From contig NZ_JAUSAR010000005.1 of assembly GCF_030652515.1 (NCBI RefSeq), positions 62,001 to 126,000 of the forward strand: a stretch of DNA of 64,000 nt, read 5' to 3'. The DNA comes from Aquabacterium sp. Lineage in GTDB: Bacteria; Pseudomonadota; Gammaproteobacteria; Burkholderiales; Burkholderiaceae_C. Of the stretch, positions 58,728 through 64,000 are shown in pieces (position 1 is the first letter of the stretch; every line of letters starts with the position of its first letter). The notes under the pieces were generated by a model. The model saw nothing but the letters and a program-made list of their open reading frames with translations, was not told the DNA's origin and ran no database searches. The position numbers were made by a program, and so were the translations under genes.

Positions 58728-59216
58728 ATGAGCCCGACGACTGCTTTCCTTCCCACCCCGGGTGCCGCGGCGCCCGATACCTGGCATTTCAGGCACCAGG
58801 TCCGCATCTACTGGGAAGACACCGACGCGGGCGGCATCGTGTTCTACGGTAATTATTTGAAGTACATGGAGCGGGCCCGCACCGAATGGCTCAGCGCCCT
58901 GGGCTTCAGCCAGGAGCGCCTGCGCAGTGGCGGCGAGGGCATGTTCGTGGTGGGTGAAACCCACTTGCGCTACCTCAAGCCCGCCCGGCTGGACGACGTG
59001 CTCACCGTCACGGTGCGCCTGGTCGAGTTGGGCCGTGCGACCATGGCGTTCCTGCAGGAAGTCTGGCGGGGTGATACCTTGCTGACCCAAGGCCGCGTGC
59101 GCATTGGCTGGGTGGCGCCTTTCAAGGATCACTTCAAGCCCGCCCGCATTCCCGCTCAGATCCTGGCCATCTTGCCGATCCCAAACCAACAAGCCTCCGG
59201 AGTTGACCGCCCATGA
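58728..59216 (+). CDS. ybgC: Tol-Pal-associated acyl-CoA thioesterase YbgC
   Basis: The 162-residue 4-hydroxybenzoyl-CoA-thioesterase-type hotdog protein has WEDTDAGGIVFYGNYLKYMERARTEWL (catalytic Asp in DTDAGG and the Tyr/His-type helix), GEGMFVVGETHLRYLKPARLDD and LTQGRVRIGWV. It hydrolyses acyl-CoA or acyl-ACP and starts the tol operon. The N-terminus has about 20 non-conserved residues. Its TGA overlaps the tolQ ATG by four bases. Confidence 0.93.
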   Translation: MSPTTAFLPTPGAAAPDTWHFRHQVRIYWEDTDAGGIVFYGNYLKYMERARTEWLSALGFSQERLRSGGEGMFVVGETHLRYLKPARLDDVLTVTVRLVELGRATMAFLQEVWRGDTLLTQGRVRIGWVAPFKDHFKPARIPAQILAILPIPNQQASGVDRP

Positions 59217-59929
59217 ATCAAGACTTGTCCATCATTGAATTGGTGATGCATGCCAGCGTGGTGGTGCAGATCGTGCTCGTGCTGCTGTTGGCCGTGTCGC
59301 TGGCCAGCTGGAGCATCATTTTCGGCAAGGCCATCGGCCTGAAACGCCTGAAGGGCGACAACGAAGAATTCGACCGCGAATTCTGGGCGGGCCGCACTTT
59401 ACAAGAACTTTACCAAGATGCATCGCGGGCCAGCGGCCCACCATCGCCGCAGGAGCGCATCTTCGCGGCGGGCATGCGCGAGTTCCTGAAACTGCGCGAG
59501 CGCCGCGTCGTCGACGTGGCCAGTTTGCTGGACGGATCACGCCGCGCCATGCGGGCCAGCTACCAGCGCGAGATGGACGTCATCGAAGCCCGCCTGGATT
59601 TCCTGGGCTCGGTGGGGTCGGTCTCGCCTTACATCGGGCTGTTCGGCACCGTGTGGGGCATCATGAACGCCTTCACAGGTTTGTCGAGCATGCAGCAGGT
59701 GACGCTGGCCACGGTGGCGCCCGGCATCGCCGAAGCGTTGGTGGCCACGGCCATCGGCCTGTTCGCGGCCATCCCGGCTGTGCTGGCGTACAACAACTTC
59801 TCGCGCGACATCGACCGCATTGCCACTCACCTGGAGTCCTTCATCGAGGAGTTCTCCAACATCCTGGCGCGCAACACGCAGCCTGCAGCCGGTGCAGACG
59901 CCGCCCGTCCTGCGACCACTGCCCGCTGA
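59213..59929 (+). CDS. tolQ: Tol-Pal system proton channel subunit TolQ
   Basis: The 238-residue inner membrane protein has TM1 (VVVQIVLVLLLAVSLASWSIIF), a cytoplasmic helical loop, and TM2/TM3 with the family signature LGSVGSVSPYIGLFGTVWGIMNAF and VAPGIAEALVATAIGLFAAIPAVLAYN. With TolR and TolA it uses proton-motive force to constrict the outer membrane at division. The order ybgC-tolQ-tolR-tolA and TolQ-type GSVGSVSPYIG separate it from ExbB. Confidence 0.95.
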   Translation: MNQDLSIIELVMHASVVVQIVLVLLLAVSLASWSIIFGKAIGLKRLKGDNEEFDREFWAGRTLQELYQDASRASGPPSPQERIFAAGMREFLKLRERRVVDVASLLDGSRRAMRASYQREMDVIEARLDFLGSVGSVSPYIGLFGTVWGIMNAFTGLSSMQQVTLATVAPGIAEALVATAIGLFAAIPAVLAYNNFSRDIDRIATHLESFIEEFSNILARNTQPAAGADAARPATTAR

Positions 59930-59941
59930 GGCCCGGACACC

Positions 59942-60382
59942 ATGGCGCAAAGCAACTGGCGAAGCGGGCGCGGTCGGCGCACCAAGAATGAGATCAACAT
60001 GGTGCCGTTCATCGACGTCATGCTGGTGCTGCTCATCATCTTCATGGTCAGCGCGCCCTTGATGCCGACCGGCGTGGTCGACCTGCCCACCGTGGGCAAG
60101 GCCAAACAGGCGCCTGAAAAAGTCATCGAAGTGGTGGTGGGCGAGGGCGAGCAGGTCAGCCTGCGAATCGACCAGCAAGACAGCGGCAGCATGAAGCTCG
60201 CCGAGCTGACCAAGCGCGTGAAAGCAGCGCAAGACAGCACGGCTGGCGGCCCCACAGCCGCGCCTGTCATCATCAGCGCCCGCAAGGATGTGCGCTACGA
60301 CGCCGTGCTCAAGATCATGGACACCTTGCAGCGTGCAGGCGTGGCCCGCGTCGGGCTGACGGTGCACACCACCGGGGGATGA
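59942..60382 (+). CDS. tolR: Tol-Pal system protein TolR
   Basis: The 146-residue protein has one TM (INMVPFIDVMLVLLIIFMVSAPLM) with the proton-path Asp in PFIDVML, and a periplasmic ExbD/TolR domain (VIISARKDVRYDAVLKIMDTLQRAGVARVGLTV). It begins 12 bases after tolQ and its stop overlaps the tolA start. Confidence 0.95.
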   Translation: MAQSNWRSGRGRRTKNEINMVPFIDVMLVLLIIFMVSAPLMPTGVVDLPTVGKAKQAPEKVIEVVVGEGEQVSLRIDQQDSGSMKLAELTKRVKAAQDSTAGGPTAAPVIISARKDVRYDAVLKIMDTLQRAGVARVGLTVHTTGG

Positions 60383-61248
60383 GCAGCGTGACCGTGGCGC
60401 GTGCTGAGGTGTTTCGGCCCAAGGCCGAGGACACGCTGGGCCTGGGCATGGTCCTGGCCCTGGCTGCGCACCTTTTGCTGGTGCTGGCCCTGGCCTTCGG
60501 GGTGAACTGGCGAAGGCACACGCCAGTGATTGCCGAGGCTGAAGTCTGGGCCGAAGTGCCAACGGCCGCCGCACCCGCCGAAGAGCCGCCACCACCACCC
60601 ACGCCGATTGAAGAAACCCCGCCACCGCCACCCCCGGTCGCGCAGGCCGAGCCTGAACCCGTGCCAGAGCCCGAAGCCGACATCCCGAGCGCGCCCGTGC
60701 CCAAGGCCAAGCGCAAGAAGGAAAAACCTTTGCCGCCCGTGGCCAAGGTCGAGCCCCCGCCCAAGCCCAAAAAGAAGCCCCCGGAACCGAAGGAAACCTT
60801 CATCAACGAGCCGCCGGTGGTCGCCAAGAAGCCCAAGACTCCGCCCGCGCCACCTGCGCCCGCAACGCCGACCGTGTCAACGGCTGAGCGCGAGGCCCAG
60901 CGCAAAGCCGCCATGCAGCGCATGATGAAAGACCTGGGCTCGTTGGGCACGTCCGAGCAGTCTGCAGGCCCTTCTGCCAACTACGTGGGCAAACTCAGGG
61001 CGCGCATCATCCCCAACATCACCTTTCTGATGGACGAGGGCAGTGGCAATCCCACGGCCTTTGTGGAGATCCGTTGCGCCCCCGATGGCACCATCCTGTC
61101 GCGCCGCCTGCTGGATCCCAGCGGCTCACCCGCCTGGGACAAGGCCGTGCTGGATGGCATCGACAAGACACGCTCCCTGCCCTTCGATGAGCGCGGTCGT
61201 TTGCCGGACACGGTCTTCCAGATCGGGATCAGCCCGCGCGATCGGTGA
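60379..61248 (+). CDS. tolA: Cell-envelope integrity protein TolA
   Basis: The 289-residue protein has one N-terminal TM at about 23-45 (LGMVLALAAHLLLVLALAFGV), a long Pro/Lys/Glu-rich linker (EEPPPPPTPIEETPPPPPPVAQ and KPKKKPPEPKE), a helical segment (AEREAQRKAAMQRMMKDLG) and the C-terminal TolA domain (YVGKLRARIIPNITFLMDEGSGNPTAFVEIRCAPDGTILSRRLLDPSGSPAWDKAV). The linker is shorter and more Pro-rich than the E. coli Ala-rich helix. tolB and pal do not follow; the next gene is on the other strand and overlaps the tolA 3' end by 20 bases. Confidence 0.93.
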   Translation: MSSVTVARAEVFRPKAEDTLGLGMVLALAAHLLLVLALAFGVNWRRHTPVIAEAEVWAEVPTAAAPAEEPPPPPTPIEETPPPPPPVAQAEPEPVPEPEADIPSAPVPKAKRKKEKPLPPVAKVEPPPKPKKKPPEPKETFINEPPVVAKKPKTPPAPPAPATPTVSTAEREAQRKAAMQRMMKDLGSLGTSEQSAGPSANYVGKLRARIIPNITFLMDEGSGNPTAFVEIRCAPDGTILSRRLLDPSGSPAWDKAVLDGIDKTRSLPFDERGRLPDTVFQIGISPRDR

Positions 61249-62059
61249 TGCTCACGCGCCAGATCCAACCGTGGTGCAAGGCCATCGCCAGCCACTGACT
61301 CAGGTCGAAATCAGCGTGCGCGTGGTTCAGCAAGGTGGACAAGCTGGGGGCGGGGTGGGTGGCTGAAGGGGCCAGGGCGCTCATCCAGTCCACCATGGCC
61401 TCGGGTACGGCCAGCACTTCGGCGCGCCATTGGGGGCGCCACACCACGGCGGTCTCGGCCTGCCGGGCCCGCAAGGCCTCGCGCACTTTGTCCAGCATGG
61501 CGGCGGCCTGGGCCGGGTCTTCGGCACTGTCGGCCTGGTGGGCCTGCCAAAGCGTGACCACTGGCCAATCTGATCGGATCACGCTCAAGCCAGGGCGCAA
61601 TTCAAGGCGCAGGTGGGCGGGGTCTTGCGTGCCCAACAAGGCCAGCGATTCGGCCTCGAACAGGGCATCCCTGGCGTGTTCGGCGGTGTGCCGGGCCCAA
61701 TCCAAGCGGGCGCAGTCGGCCAGGTAGGGCCAGGCTTGCACTTCTGCCAAACCGTTCAGCCAATCGGGCAGGTCTTGTCCCCAGGCTGTCAGGTCGCCTT
61801 GGGTGGGCGGGTGGTGGTGCCACAACTGCCGGGCCAGCAGTGCCAATGCCTCGTCACCCAGCAAAGCCTGCACCGTGGGGTAGGCGGCGGCCAGCACCCG
61901 CTCGGCCGTGGCGCTGGCGTTGCCCTGGTAGGCCGCCAAGCCTAGCCGCAATGATGGCCCTTGTTCACGCCAAGCCGGGTTGGCCTGGGAAGCTGTTGGC
62001 AGGCCCCATAAAGATCGCAGCACGGCGGCCTGGCGTTGGCCCTCTTCGAGCATGCTCAT
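61229..62059 (-). CDS. bufC: DUF2063 partner protein of the DUF692 enzyme (BufC/HvfC/MbnC-like)
   Basis: The 276-residue protein has the DUF2063 N-terminal region (GLAAYQGNASATAERVLAAAYPTVQALLGDEALALLARQLWHHHPP, then GDLTAWGQDLPDWLNGL). The C-terminal part is like the HvfC second domain (SLSTLLNHAHADFDLSQWLAMALHHGWI). In the methanobactin and bufferin pathways such a protein forms a complex with the DUF692 oxygenase and positions the precursor. Its ATG overlaps the bufB stop by four bases. The gene name reflects the closest known pathway, not proven function. Confidence 0.85.
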   Translation of the reverse strand: MSMLEEGQRQAAVLRSLWGLPTASQANPAWREQGPSLRLGLAAYQGNASATAERVLAAAYPTVQALLGDEALALLARQLWHHHPPTQGDLTAWGQDLPDWLNGLAEVQAWPYLADCARLDWARHTAEHARDALFEAESLALLGTQDPAHLRLELRPGLSVIRSDWPVVTLWQAHQADSAEDPAQAAAMLDKVREALRARQAETAVVWRPQWRAEVLAVPEAMVDWMSALAPSATHPAPSLSTLLNHAHADFDLSQWLAMALHHGWIWRVSITDRAG

Positions 62060-62976
62060 GATCTGGCCGCCATGGCGCGAGTGGCCACCGCATCGGCCTG
62101 CCGGGCTTGTGCCAGCAGCACTTCCAGCTCCGGCAGGTCCGTGTCCCATTCGACCAAGGTGGGTTGGGGGCCAAAGCGTTGCACGGCTTCGGCATAGACC
62201 TGCCACACCACGGGTTGCACTTCGGCGCTGTGGTCGTCCACCACCAGTTGGTCTGCCTTGACGGGCGTTTGAAAGCCCGCCAGGTGCACCTCGCCCACCA
62301 CGTCGCTTGGCAGGGCCTGGATGAAGGCCAGGGCGTGCTCCCCGGCTGCCATCAAGTCTGATGCCAGGGACATCCTCTCCAGTGACGATCGGCCCTGGCG
62401 CGCGGCATTCAGGCCGTTCACCACCAGGTTGTTCACGTCCAGCAGCAACTGGCAGCCACTGCGCCGACACAGCTCGGCCAGAAAATGTGGCTCGGGCAGG
62501 CAATCGTCCGCGTAGCTCAGGTAGGCAGACAGGTTTTCGACCAGGATGGGGCGCCGCAGGCGCGACTGCACCTCGCCCACGTTGCGAACCAGGATGTCCA
62601 GCGATGCGGGGGTGAAGGCCACGGGCAGCAGATCGCTGGCATGCACCATCTCGCCGCCCGGCCAGGCGCCCCGGGCAAAGCAGGCGTGGTCGGACACCCG
62701 AACTGGCTCGATCTGCTCGACCAACCGAACCAGCTTGTCCAGGTGCCTCGCATCCAGTCCACAGGCCGAACCCAGTGACAGGCCCACGCCATGCAGGCTC
62801 ACGGGGTAGTGGTCCCGCGCGGCCGTCAGCACGGCCAGCGCCGCTCCGCCGTCACCAAAGAAGTTCTCGGAATGGACCTCGACAAACCCCAACGGCGGCA
62901 AAAGCGCCATCAGGGCCTGATAGTGCGGCTGGCGCAGGCCGATGCCGGCCAGATCATTGGCGGGGAGGGCCGCCAT
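62056..62976 (-). CDS. bufB: DUF692 multinuclear iron oxygenase (BufB/HvfB/MbnB-like)
   Basis: The 306-residue TIM-barrel enzyme modifies cysteines of a small precursor. Metal-ligand-type motifs follow the family: EVHSENFF (His35-Glu37), LHGVGLSLGS (His62), VSDHACF (Asp96-His97), LVENLSAY (Glu), LLLDVNNLVVN (Asp), VGEVHLAGF (Glu/His), DDHS and LVEWDTDLP. Known DUF692 members turn Cys into oxazolone-thioamide (methanobactin) or thiooxazole (bufferin) groups. It starts five bases after the precursor gene stop and overlaps bufC, so the trio is one operon. Confidence 0.92.
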   Translation of the reverse strand: MAALPANDLAGIGLRQPHYQALMALLPPLGFVEVHSENFFGDGGAALAVLTAARDHYPVSLHGVGLSLGSACGLDARHLDKLVRLVEQIEPVRVSDHACFARGAWPGGEMVHASDLLPVAFTPASLDILVRNVGEVQSRLRRPILVENLSAYLSYADDCLPEPHFLAELCRRSGCQLLLDVNNLVVNGLNAARQGRSSLERMSLASDLMAAGEHALAFIQALPSDVVGEVHLAGFQTPVKADQLVVDDHSAEVQPVVWQVYAEAVQRFGPQPTLVEWDTDLPELEVLLAQARQADAVATRAMAARS

Positions 62977-62981
62977 CCGTT

Positions 62982-63281
62982 TTACTTCTTCTCGGCTTGC
63001 TTGGCCACGGCCACCTTGGCTTCTTCGGCAGACAGGCCACCCAGCTTGGCGCAGGTGCCCTTGGCCACCAGCTTCCATTCGTCGGGCGCCTTGTCCACCG
63101 TGGACTGGCCGGCGCAAGAGTGGCTGCCCGACAGGTTGGCGCAGCTGTTTTCGCCCGCTTTGGCGATGCCATAGCACTTTTCCTTGCCCTTCGAGGCACT
63201 CATTTCGGCCGAAGCTTGCGACACCAGGCCCAAAGCCATGACGGAGGCGAGGGCGGAGGACAGCAGCTGACGTTGGTTCAT
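62982..63281 (-). CDS. bufA: DUF2282 exported precursor peptide (bufferin BufA1-like)
   Basis: This small 99-residue protein has a Sec signal peptide ([21 protein letters not shown], cut after Ala25) and four cysteines at 36, 47, 56 and 77. They lie in the conserved pattern [33 protein letters not shown]. The same pattern is seen in DUF2282 proteins that are RiPP precursors modified by DUF692 enzymes and that bind copper in the periplasm. The start is the ATG giving MNQRQLL; an in-frame ATG 87 bases further upstream lacks support. It heads the bufABC operon with a palindrome in its upstream region. Confidence 0.9.
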
Positions 63282-63492: not shown

Positions 63493-64000
63493 ATGTCTGA
63501 TTCACCATTGCCGCCGCTGAACTGGGAGGGTGCCTTGAGCCAGCTCGATTCTGGCGTGGCCGACTCAGCGAGTCAGGATCAGAACTTGATCGACAACGAA
63601 ACGGGCGTTTTCCTCTGGCCTACGCCGCCTTTCGCCACCTACCCACCCGCCCGCCAGCAAACGGAACACGAAACCTGCGAAATCGAAGGGCTCAATGGCC
63701 GGATCATGAAGGGGCGGCTGAGTTTTTTCGTACCCGATGAAGAAGTGGCCCACATCCAGGTGCCGCCCTCCCGCACCACGATGGCCTTGCGCTTTGGCCA
63801 GTTCCGCACCTTGTTGCTCACCAACCCGCTCAAGCCCAAGAAGGGGGCGGACGGGCAGGACCCGCACGCGTCGATGCTGGGGCACCGCGCCAGCGTTGAT
63901 TTCCGCGTGAAGTTCAAGGCTGGAGGCCAGGTTGAAGGCCAGACCATGGGCCACCGCGAAACCGAGTTCGGCATATTCCTGTTTCCGCCCGTGGGCGACG
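63493..64000 (+). CDS. Unrecognised protein, N-terminal part (3' end outside window)
   Basis: The frame opens at an ATG after TTAGGAGTGTC (a GGAG ribosome site) and is still open at the right edge, giving about 169 residues. The N-terminus is acidic and polar (about 1-45). Then come VFLWPTPPFATYPP, a strand-rich region with CEIEGLNGRIMKGRLSFFVPDEEVAHIQVPPS and RFGQFRTLLLT, and VDFRVKFKAGGQVEGQTMGHRETEFGIFLF. The pattern recalls regulatory N-terminal or PilZ-like beta-barrel regions of GspE/PilB-type ATPases, but this is only a weak impression. It is divergent from the bufferin-type operon across 211 bases. Confidence 0.7.
   Translation, partial: MSDSPLPPLNWEGALSQLDSGVADSASQDQNLIDNETGVFLWPTPPFATYPPARQQTEHETCEIEGLNGRIMKGRLSFFVPDEEVAHIQVPPSRTTMALRFGQFRTLLLTNPLKPKKGADGQDPHASMLGHRASVDFRVKFKAGGQVEGQTMGHRETEFGIFLFPPVGD

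Follow-up and report, generated by a model that had tools for sequence, protein, structure and literature searches.

Bufferins are reported to carry thiooxazoles and to have a role in copper; in Buf1 peptides the central cysteines are described as modified and the outer ones as a disulphide, and Buf1 reportedly chelates Cu(I)/Cu(II) (PMC12452194). Thiooxazole metallophores in general are treated in PMC12668002. The Buf1 operon of Caulobacter vibrioides (CC3254-CC3257, CCNA_03363-03366) encodes a DUF2282 precursor, an MNIO (DUF692) enzyme and a DUF2063 partner, is linked to sigF and doxX, and is by report copper-induced and driven by an extracytoplasmic function (ECF) sigma factor, SigF, whose anti-sigma factor NrsF (DUF1109) has six predicted membrane spans. 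According to PMC8224329, SigF controls msrPQ as well as two operons of the bufferin type, copper induces these genes in both media, and a mutant in sigF is sensitive to copper. A second Caulobacter set, CC2907-CC2906-CC2905 (DUF2282-DUF692-DUF2063), is described as a three-gene arrangement without DoxX, with its ECF factor encoded elsewhere (PMC3511200). The gigPABT-rpoQ-rsqA genes of Cupriavidus metallidurans keep six genes together, namely those for a DUF2282-type GigP, DUF692, DUF2063 and DoxX proteins and a divergent ECF pair; gig is reported to be copper-induced, and according to the available text a promoter upstream of it was not found (PMC10304878). GIG of Legionella is covered in PMC5413113. 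We analyzed a bufferin-type operon, bufABC, in a stretch of 64,000 nucleotides from Aquabacterium sp. (GCF_030652515.1, contig NZ_JAUSAR010000005.1, positions 62,001 to 126,000), referred to below as the window.

Like the Caulobacter Buf1 operon, bufABC encodes DUF2282, MNIO and DUF2063 proteins in the same order; unlike it, bufABC is not linked to doxX or to its presumed ECF/anti-sigma pair, in which a zf-HC2 protein of 69 residues is the anti-sigma factor. The absence of DoxX and an ECF factor encoded elsewhere are shared with CC2907-CC2905, which differs in its anti-sigma family and for which the available text of PMC3511200 mentions no tolA/pilB surroundings. The gig layout, with all six genes together, recurs in the outgroup loci described below. 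The HvfABC-X oxazolin system of Haemophilus influenzae has an MNIO, a DUF2063/recognition-element (RRE) partner and the DoxX-like HvfX, and its enzyme has site-3 residues in common with the window's; its precursor differs in having EGKCG repeats, whereas the window BufA has four spaced cysteines and no EGKCG. Our principal proposal, which we consider probable, is that in this bacterium two bufferin operons and a DoxX common to both belong to a single copper-stress sigma regulon, parallel to Caulobacter SigF but with another anti-sigma family. It is drawn from the co-occurrence of an unlinked ECF, anti-sigma and DoxX trio with the operon and from a promoter motif common to bufA, doxX and a Buf2 precursor gene. 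Among the open-licence papers matched in literature searches, no title or abstract opening described an unlinked ECF-DoxX module or bufferins in Aquabacterium.

An earlier note, made from the DNA sequence alone, had described a complete three-gene operon adjoining tolA, and this was confirmed: all three Pfam scores exceed the curated cut-offs (Table 1), bufA and bufB are separated by a 5-base gap, bufB and bufC overlap by 4 bases, and bufC and tolA lie tail-to-tail with an overlap of 20 bases. Pfam matches, conserved ligands and the order of the genes support its placement in the bufferin-type family, with a DUF692 enzyme and a DUF2063 partner. Judged by its sequence, it is a Buf1 bufferin operon of a known kind, ordinary at the operon level. 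Below, pieces of other records or of the own genome are labelled L###, and genomes of the same genus G### (G000 being the own genome).

Table 1. Positions and profile scores of the features discussed; coordinates refer to the window, or to the named piece of the own genome.
Feature	Location	Strand	Evidence
bufA, Buf1 (DUF2282) precursor, 99 aa	62982..63281	-	PF10048 84.7 bits, cut-off 22.4
bufB, MNIO (DUF692) maturase, 306 aa	62056..62976	-	PF05114 287.6 bits, cut-off 25
bufC, DUF2063 partner (PME-type 1), 276 aa	61229..62059	-	PF09836 53.1 bits, cut-off 27.2, residues 31-101
Candidate ECF-type promoter motif 5' of bufA, TGTCAGA-N15-CGACCAA	63339..63367	-	pattern match in genome
tolA, convergent neighbour, landmark outside the system	60379..61248	+	PF13103
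pilB-like T2SSE ATPase gene, 858 aa, second landmark, continues beyond window	63493..64000	+	PF00437 409 bits on L004:4494-7070
Trio ECF sigma factor	L165:6176-6796 (contig C56)		PF04542 46.9 bits, PF08281 34.5; NCBIfam TIGR02943 240.5, cut-off 162.2
Trio zf-HC2 anti-sigma factor, 69 aa	L165:6793-7002		zf-HC2 28.0 bits, cut-off 22.2
Trio DoxX, third in mini-operon	L165:7058-7528		DoxX 61.5 bits, cut-off 23.6
Buf2 operon: six-Cys precursor, MNIO, DUF2063	contig C30, L003:7679-9659 (own genome, G000)

Three DoxX genes were identified in the own genome. A profile made in this analysis from bufferin-linked DoxX proteins matched the one on contig C56 with 190 bits and gave no match to the other two. 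The earlier note had regarded the operon as a minimal form because its DoxX gene was missing. This is correct for the locus, where no DoxX is found at the tolA-pilB site, but it does not hold genome-wide, since the C56 gene is of the bufferin-linked type and lies behind an ECF/anti-sigma pair and the motif of bufA. The label is thus misleading, and a three-gene operon free of DoxX had moreover been published from Caulobacter (PMC3511200). Of the 42 genomes of the genus, 12 gave the complete trio; all 12 belong to the 16 that carry the operon at tolA, and the remaining 26 yielded no trio (Fisher 1.6e-7, uncorrected for shared ancestry). Approximately 650 kb of a single 4.9-Mb contig separate bufA from the trio in G009. 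G001, G035 and G036, which have no operon at tolA, carry a close ECF and anti-sigma pair without such a DoxX beside it.

The own genome also carries a second bufferin operon, of the Buf2 type, on contig C30. Its precursor scored 104.4 bits against BufA2 (cut-off 60) and its enzyme 384.9 against BufB (cut-off 310). There is no adjacent DoxX; the neighbours are Lactamase_B, TauE and, as judged by eye, an AraC-like regulator.

The motif was first read by eye as TGTAAGRA / TGTCAGATT, followed after 15 bases by CGACYMA, in front of the outgroup bufA, the genus bufA and the unlinked doxX. Counted as TGT[AC]AG[AG]-N15/16-CGAC within 250 bases of bufA, it was present in 25 of the 37 loci that have a linked ECF (expectation 0.38, calculated on the remainder of the same loci) and in 23 of 36 loci without an ECF in the piece (0.11 expected). 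Within the genus it precedes bufA in 11 of the 16 operons, with three more one base off and none in G018 and G021, while at other DUF2282 loci of the genus it was seen once in ten, that one being G014's. It also precedes doxX in 12/12 trios (12/13 counting the DoxX of G025). Genome-wide counts are a more independent test. In the own 5.4 Mb genome, TGTMAGRN{15,16}CGACYMA has three matches, one each ahead of bufA and doxX and one within the ECF gene, against 0 in the control; genus-wide there are 47 matches, and the reversed pattern has 10. When tightened to GTGTAAGA-N15/16-CGAC, the motif matches twice in 5.4 Mb, once ahead of doxX and once ahead of the C30 Buf2 precursor gene (control 1); the Buf2 site lies outside the set from which the motif was defined. 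An element TGTMAGR-N15-CGAC is thereby common to bufA, doxX and buf2.

A blind enumeration of word pairs common to the upstream regions of ECF genes and bufA returned nothing, and the motif was found upstream of 0/17 ECF genes examined; the unlinked ECF therefore seems not to be autoregulated through this motif. The 23 ECF-less pieces with the motif at bufA include L017, L024-L028, L032 and L037 (Rhizobacter/Rubrivivax-type), and the 13 without it include L013, L014, L016, L021 and L036. Control in trans may therefore be common beyond Aquabacterium, or, as some pieces are short, an ECF gene may lie just outside them.

In 30 of the 39 linked ECF genes (38 loci among L022-L088, plus L161) the motif, as TGTAAG/TGTCAG-N15-CGAC, lies in frame in region 4 (C-K/Q-E-L...T-N), 94-163 bases ahead of the anti-sigma match. 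The Cys codon at this place is the rare TGT in 32/39 genes, compared with 12/108 for the other Cys codons of the same genes (Fisher 7e-16, ancestry uncorrected). The in-gene motif is possibly an internal promoter feeding the anti-sigma gene, or possibly a coding coincidence.

Several points weigh against our overall reading. The motif was derived by eye from part of the sequences in which it was later counted, so the counts at bufA and doxX are not independent, and in a relaxed form it occurs at chance level in the own genome (12 matches, 13 in the control), so that it is by conservation and position that the bufA site is supported. The bufA motif is absent in G018 and G021. Fisher's test on the co-occurrence of the trio ignores shared ancestry; some of the 26 genomes without the operon are incomplete, and G014, which is among them, has a linked version. 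Four of the 16 operon genomes lack a complete trio: in G013 the ECF gene is cut by the contig end and there is no DoxX, in G025 the DoxX gene is on a 3-kb contig that holds no ECF, G018 has the ECF and anti-sigma pair with no match for DoxX, and G021 has neither the pair nor DoxX. Contamination of the own genome is rated at 9%, although in composition the C30 and C56 pieces agree with the window. Deleting rpoQ, the linked sigma gene of Cupriavidus, reportedly raised gig expression (PMC10304878). Finally, the window BufB scored about 4 bits below the NCBIfam BufB equivalog cut-off (305.9 bits, with 306.2 for L010 and 311.0 for L011; cut-off 310), its match being split in two near an insertion at approximately residues 196-211 that is present in 21 of 101 aligned rows. 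As the 310-bit cut-off is a naming threshold and not a family feature, the enzyme is still filed as BufB.

For comparison of the locus, the best 80 of 193 confirmed related loci were annotated with the window's own proteins. All three Buf proteins were matched in 75 of these 80, one protein being without a match in the other five, and the operon is therefore not a chance assembly. The nearest named loci among them have BufB identities of 83-84% (two Aquabacterium metagenome-assembled genomes and one Aquabacterium isolate) and 81% (a record labelled Leptothrix). In the five closest operons (the window and L009-L012), the ratio of nonsynonymous to synonymous substitution rates (dN/dS) is 0.08-0.20 for bufA, 0.14-0.25 for bufB and 0.17-0.26 for bufC, and bufABC is under purifying selection. 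The flank includes tolA in 35 of 77 scorable loci (window counted), and a local DoxX was scored in 53 of the 77, a count that enters L029 as lacking one although it is there.

In a quick tree built from 94 BufB rows (L135-L138, which are copies of L009-L012, as well as L154 and L003, were dropped), 59 of 90 scorable rows have a local DoxX and 31 have none, with 14 changes. The window's clade consists of 16 Aquabacterium rows from 15 genomes (L048 and L148 are one locus), all without local DoxX, and is nested among lineages with a local DoxX; the BufB of G021 (L149) lies outside it. Such recurrent absence suits a truly minimal, self-sufficient Buf1 operon, with bufABC under its own promoter, DoxX unneeded and the trio serving some other purpose, as do G018 and G021, which retain the operon without a BufD-type DoxX at E <= 1e-12, and CC2907-CC2905, reported without DoxX. 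We nevertheless regard self-sufficiency as unlikely, given that all 12 trios are in operon-carrying genomes and that the same motif precedes doxX and bufA; the Caulobacter genome is reported to carry a DoxX gene within the other of its SigF operons.

An ECF was matched in 38 of the 80 related loci, and in 19 of the 80 (Roseateles, Methylibium, Rivibacter and others) the genes form one cluster in the order anti-sigma, ECF sigma (divergent), bufA, bufB, bufC, doxX and tolA; pilB was also recognized in 13 of these 19, in one of them weakly. Within the genus, G014 keeps the entire block between pilB and tolA (L161). The genus survey covered 42 genomes, of which 40 have tolQ. In 16 of the 40, bufA and bufB lie beside tolA, with bufC recognized in 15 (not in G021), and none of these 16 pieces gave an ECF or DoxX match at the tolA-pilB site. 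Both tolA and pilB are present in 21 of the 24 other tolQ pieces, 16 of them with a gap of 94-192 bases and five with 738-996 bases and a BufB-like frame; one of the three leftover pieces is that of G014, whose cluster is on a different contig.

Full clusters at the same site, in the 19 loci and in G014, raise the thought that the trio is a lost piece of an ancestral pilB-antisigma-sigma-bufABCD-tolA cluster, relocated in one block. A quick tree of 58 ECFs, which carries a long-branch warning, sets the 39 linked ECFs apart by a fully supported branch, with the trio ECFs beyond it at a large distance; this tree speaks against relocation of sigma, anti-sigma and doxX as a block. The 13 unlinked DoxX likewise form one side of a branch, weakly supported (42) in a quick tree, apart from the linked DoxX of G014. 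We consider such a block move very improbable. Because the trees separate the trio from the linked ECF and DoxX, it would appear that loss of the linked regulator and doxX was made good by a different ECF-DoxX module, one that recognizes promoters of the same type.

The signal to which the regulon responds may also be questioned. The peptide could bind another metal or answer another stress (gold, silver, cadmium, chromate, oxidants), copper being one inducer among several: the gig genes are reported to be named after gold, Caulobacter SigF is reported to respond to chromate and cadmium, and in four genomes of the genus an msrP-like gene shares the motif. On the other hand, loss of sigF in Caulobacter is reported to affect copper tolerance and not cadmium or chromate sensitivity (PMC8224329), and Buf1 is itself reported as a chelator of Cu(I)/Cu(II) (PMC12452194), so a function mainly outside copper seems to us rather improbable. 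The msrP-like gene follows the motif in G022, G032, G033 and G041. The first 150 residues of the G022 and G033 proteins scored 95.6 and 125.8 bits against the MsrP model (cut-off 207) and 17.1 and 24.8 against PF00174 (cut-off 24), G032 and G041 being assigned by eye; PF00174 gave no match in the own genome. Several further motif matches in the genus have no convincing gene downstream. A secreted-looking protein behind the same motif in G020 and G013 (L186 and L187) is a candidate regulon member, L186 having a weak NHL-repeat match (E 0.42).

The alignments of BufA (104 rows) and BufB (101 rows) each include L135-L138, the second copies of L009-L012. The four conserved cysteines reported in the earlier note were found at C36, C47, C56 and C77, two central between two outer, and are near-invariant: C47 is kept in 104 BufA rows, C56 in 103, C77 in 101 and C36 in 100, and six of the eight losses are gaps. 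By eye, a putative signal peptide can be read at approximately residues 1-25 (MNQRQ..., hydrophobic core), with presumed cleavage behind A25 (ASA-E). The window BufA scored 19.7 bits against NCBIfam BufA2 (cut-off 60) and has four cysteines rather than the six of Buf2; EGKCG repeats, the mark of the oxazolin precursor HvfA, were not found in it. A PDB search with BufA gave a single match, to a designed repeat protein, which was taken as chance. By analogy with the peptides of PMC12452194, the window BufA would be soundly read as a periplasmic copper buffer with modified Cys47/Cys56.

Each candidate iron ligand of BufB (H62, H97, E147, D180, N182, H231, D247, H249, E276) is retained in 98-101 of the 101 rows. 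Among these nine residues, the assignments to site 1 and site 2 are ones that we presume. Alignment to 3BWW and residue counting equate N182, D247 and H249 with N175, D242 and H244 of HvfB. That site-3 trio is taken from PMC13419390, where the HvfB residues are reported to be essential to thiooxazole formation. The window BufB scored well below the equivalog cut-offs of HvfB (175.1 bits, cut-off 360) and MbnB (35.3 bits, cut-off 325). BufC (alignment A1, 16 members) has the DUF2063 domain; its C-terminal RRE-type domain gave no match in sequence-level searches of Pfam and PDB, and the PDB search with BufC had no match better than E 0.8.

Between tolA and pilB, G010, G015 and G007 (L125, L134 and L150) carry a lone intact MNIO-derived gene of 289 residues, the L150 copy of which scored 60.5 bits against PF05114; its iron ligands are almost all substituted or deleted, and it has neither a BufA nor a BufC match beside it. 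Because dN/dS between the three copies is 0.13-0.16, the gene is on sequence grounds classed as a conserved pseudoenzyme; a decaying fossil was ruled out by the intact frame under purifying selection. G003 and G034 have further diverged BufB-like frames at the same site. The tolB gene of the own genome is on contig C64 (L089), apart from ybgC-tolQ-tolR-tolA (window 58728-61248), and none of the 40 genus tolQ pieces (L115-L154) has a TolB match; the Tol cluster therefore looks split in this genus, within reach of the pieces.

From the observed genes, their conservation, the ligands, the co-occurrence and the shared motif, we infer the chemistry, copper binding, sigma dependence and DoxX role of the following scheme. 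BufA would be made with a Sec signal peptide and be presented by BufC to BufB in the cytoplasm, where oxidation at the mixed-valent iron centre of BufB would turn C47 and C56 into heterocycles that bind copper (in Caulobacter Buf1, thiooxazoles). After export the C36-C77 disulphide would close, and the peptide would hold excess periplasmic copper. The unlinked ECF, held by the small zf-HC2 anti-sigma factor, would most likely drive bufABC, the unlinked DoxX and the Buf2 operon through one motif, such that DoxX would be a shared partner in trans rather than a missing part and the operon would not be self-contained. More tentatively, and with somewhat more doubt than confidence, we suggest that this single ECF/zf-HC2 module commands Buf1 and Buf2, that one DoxX serves both in trans, at the level of the regulon and outside maturation, and that in the linked-cluster relatives the same promoter type inside region 4 of the sigma gene feeds the anti-sigma factor as a brake.

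The Buf1 operon itself is one among thousands; what goes beyond it is the proposed split regulon with its candidate promoter, the presence of another bufferin operon, and a role of DoxX in trans that can be tested. ECF control of the betaproteobacterial gig/bufferin operon has, according to the available text of PMC10304878, so far been assumed without a mapped promoter, and the split arrangement is a natural experiment in which comparison singles out the promoter and the regulon. Since the unlinked doxX can be removed without touching bufABC, DoxX becomes testable apart from maturation. For bufferin clusters at large, genes that seem to be missing may be unlinked.

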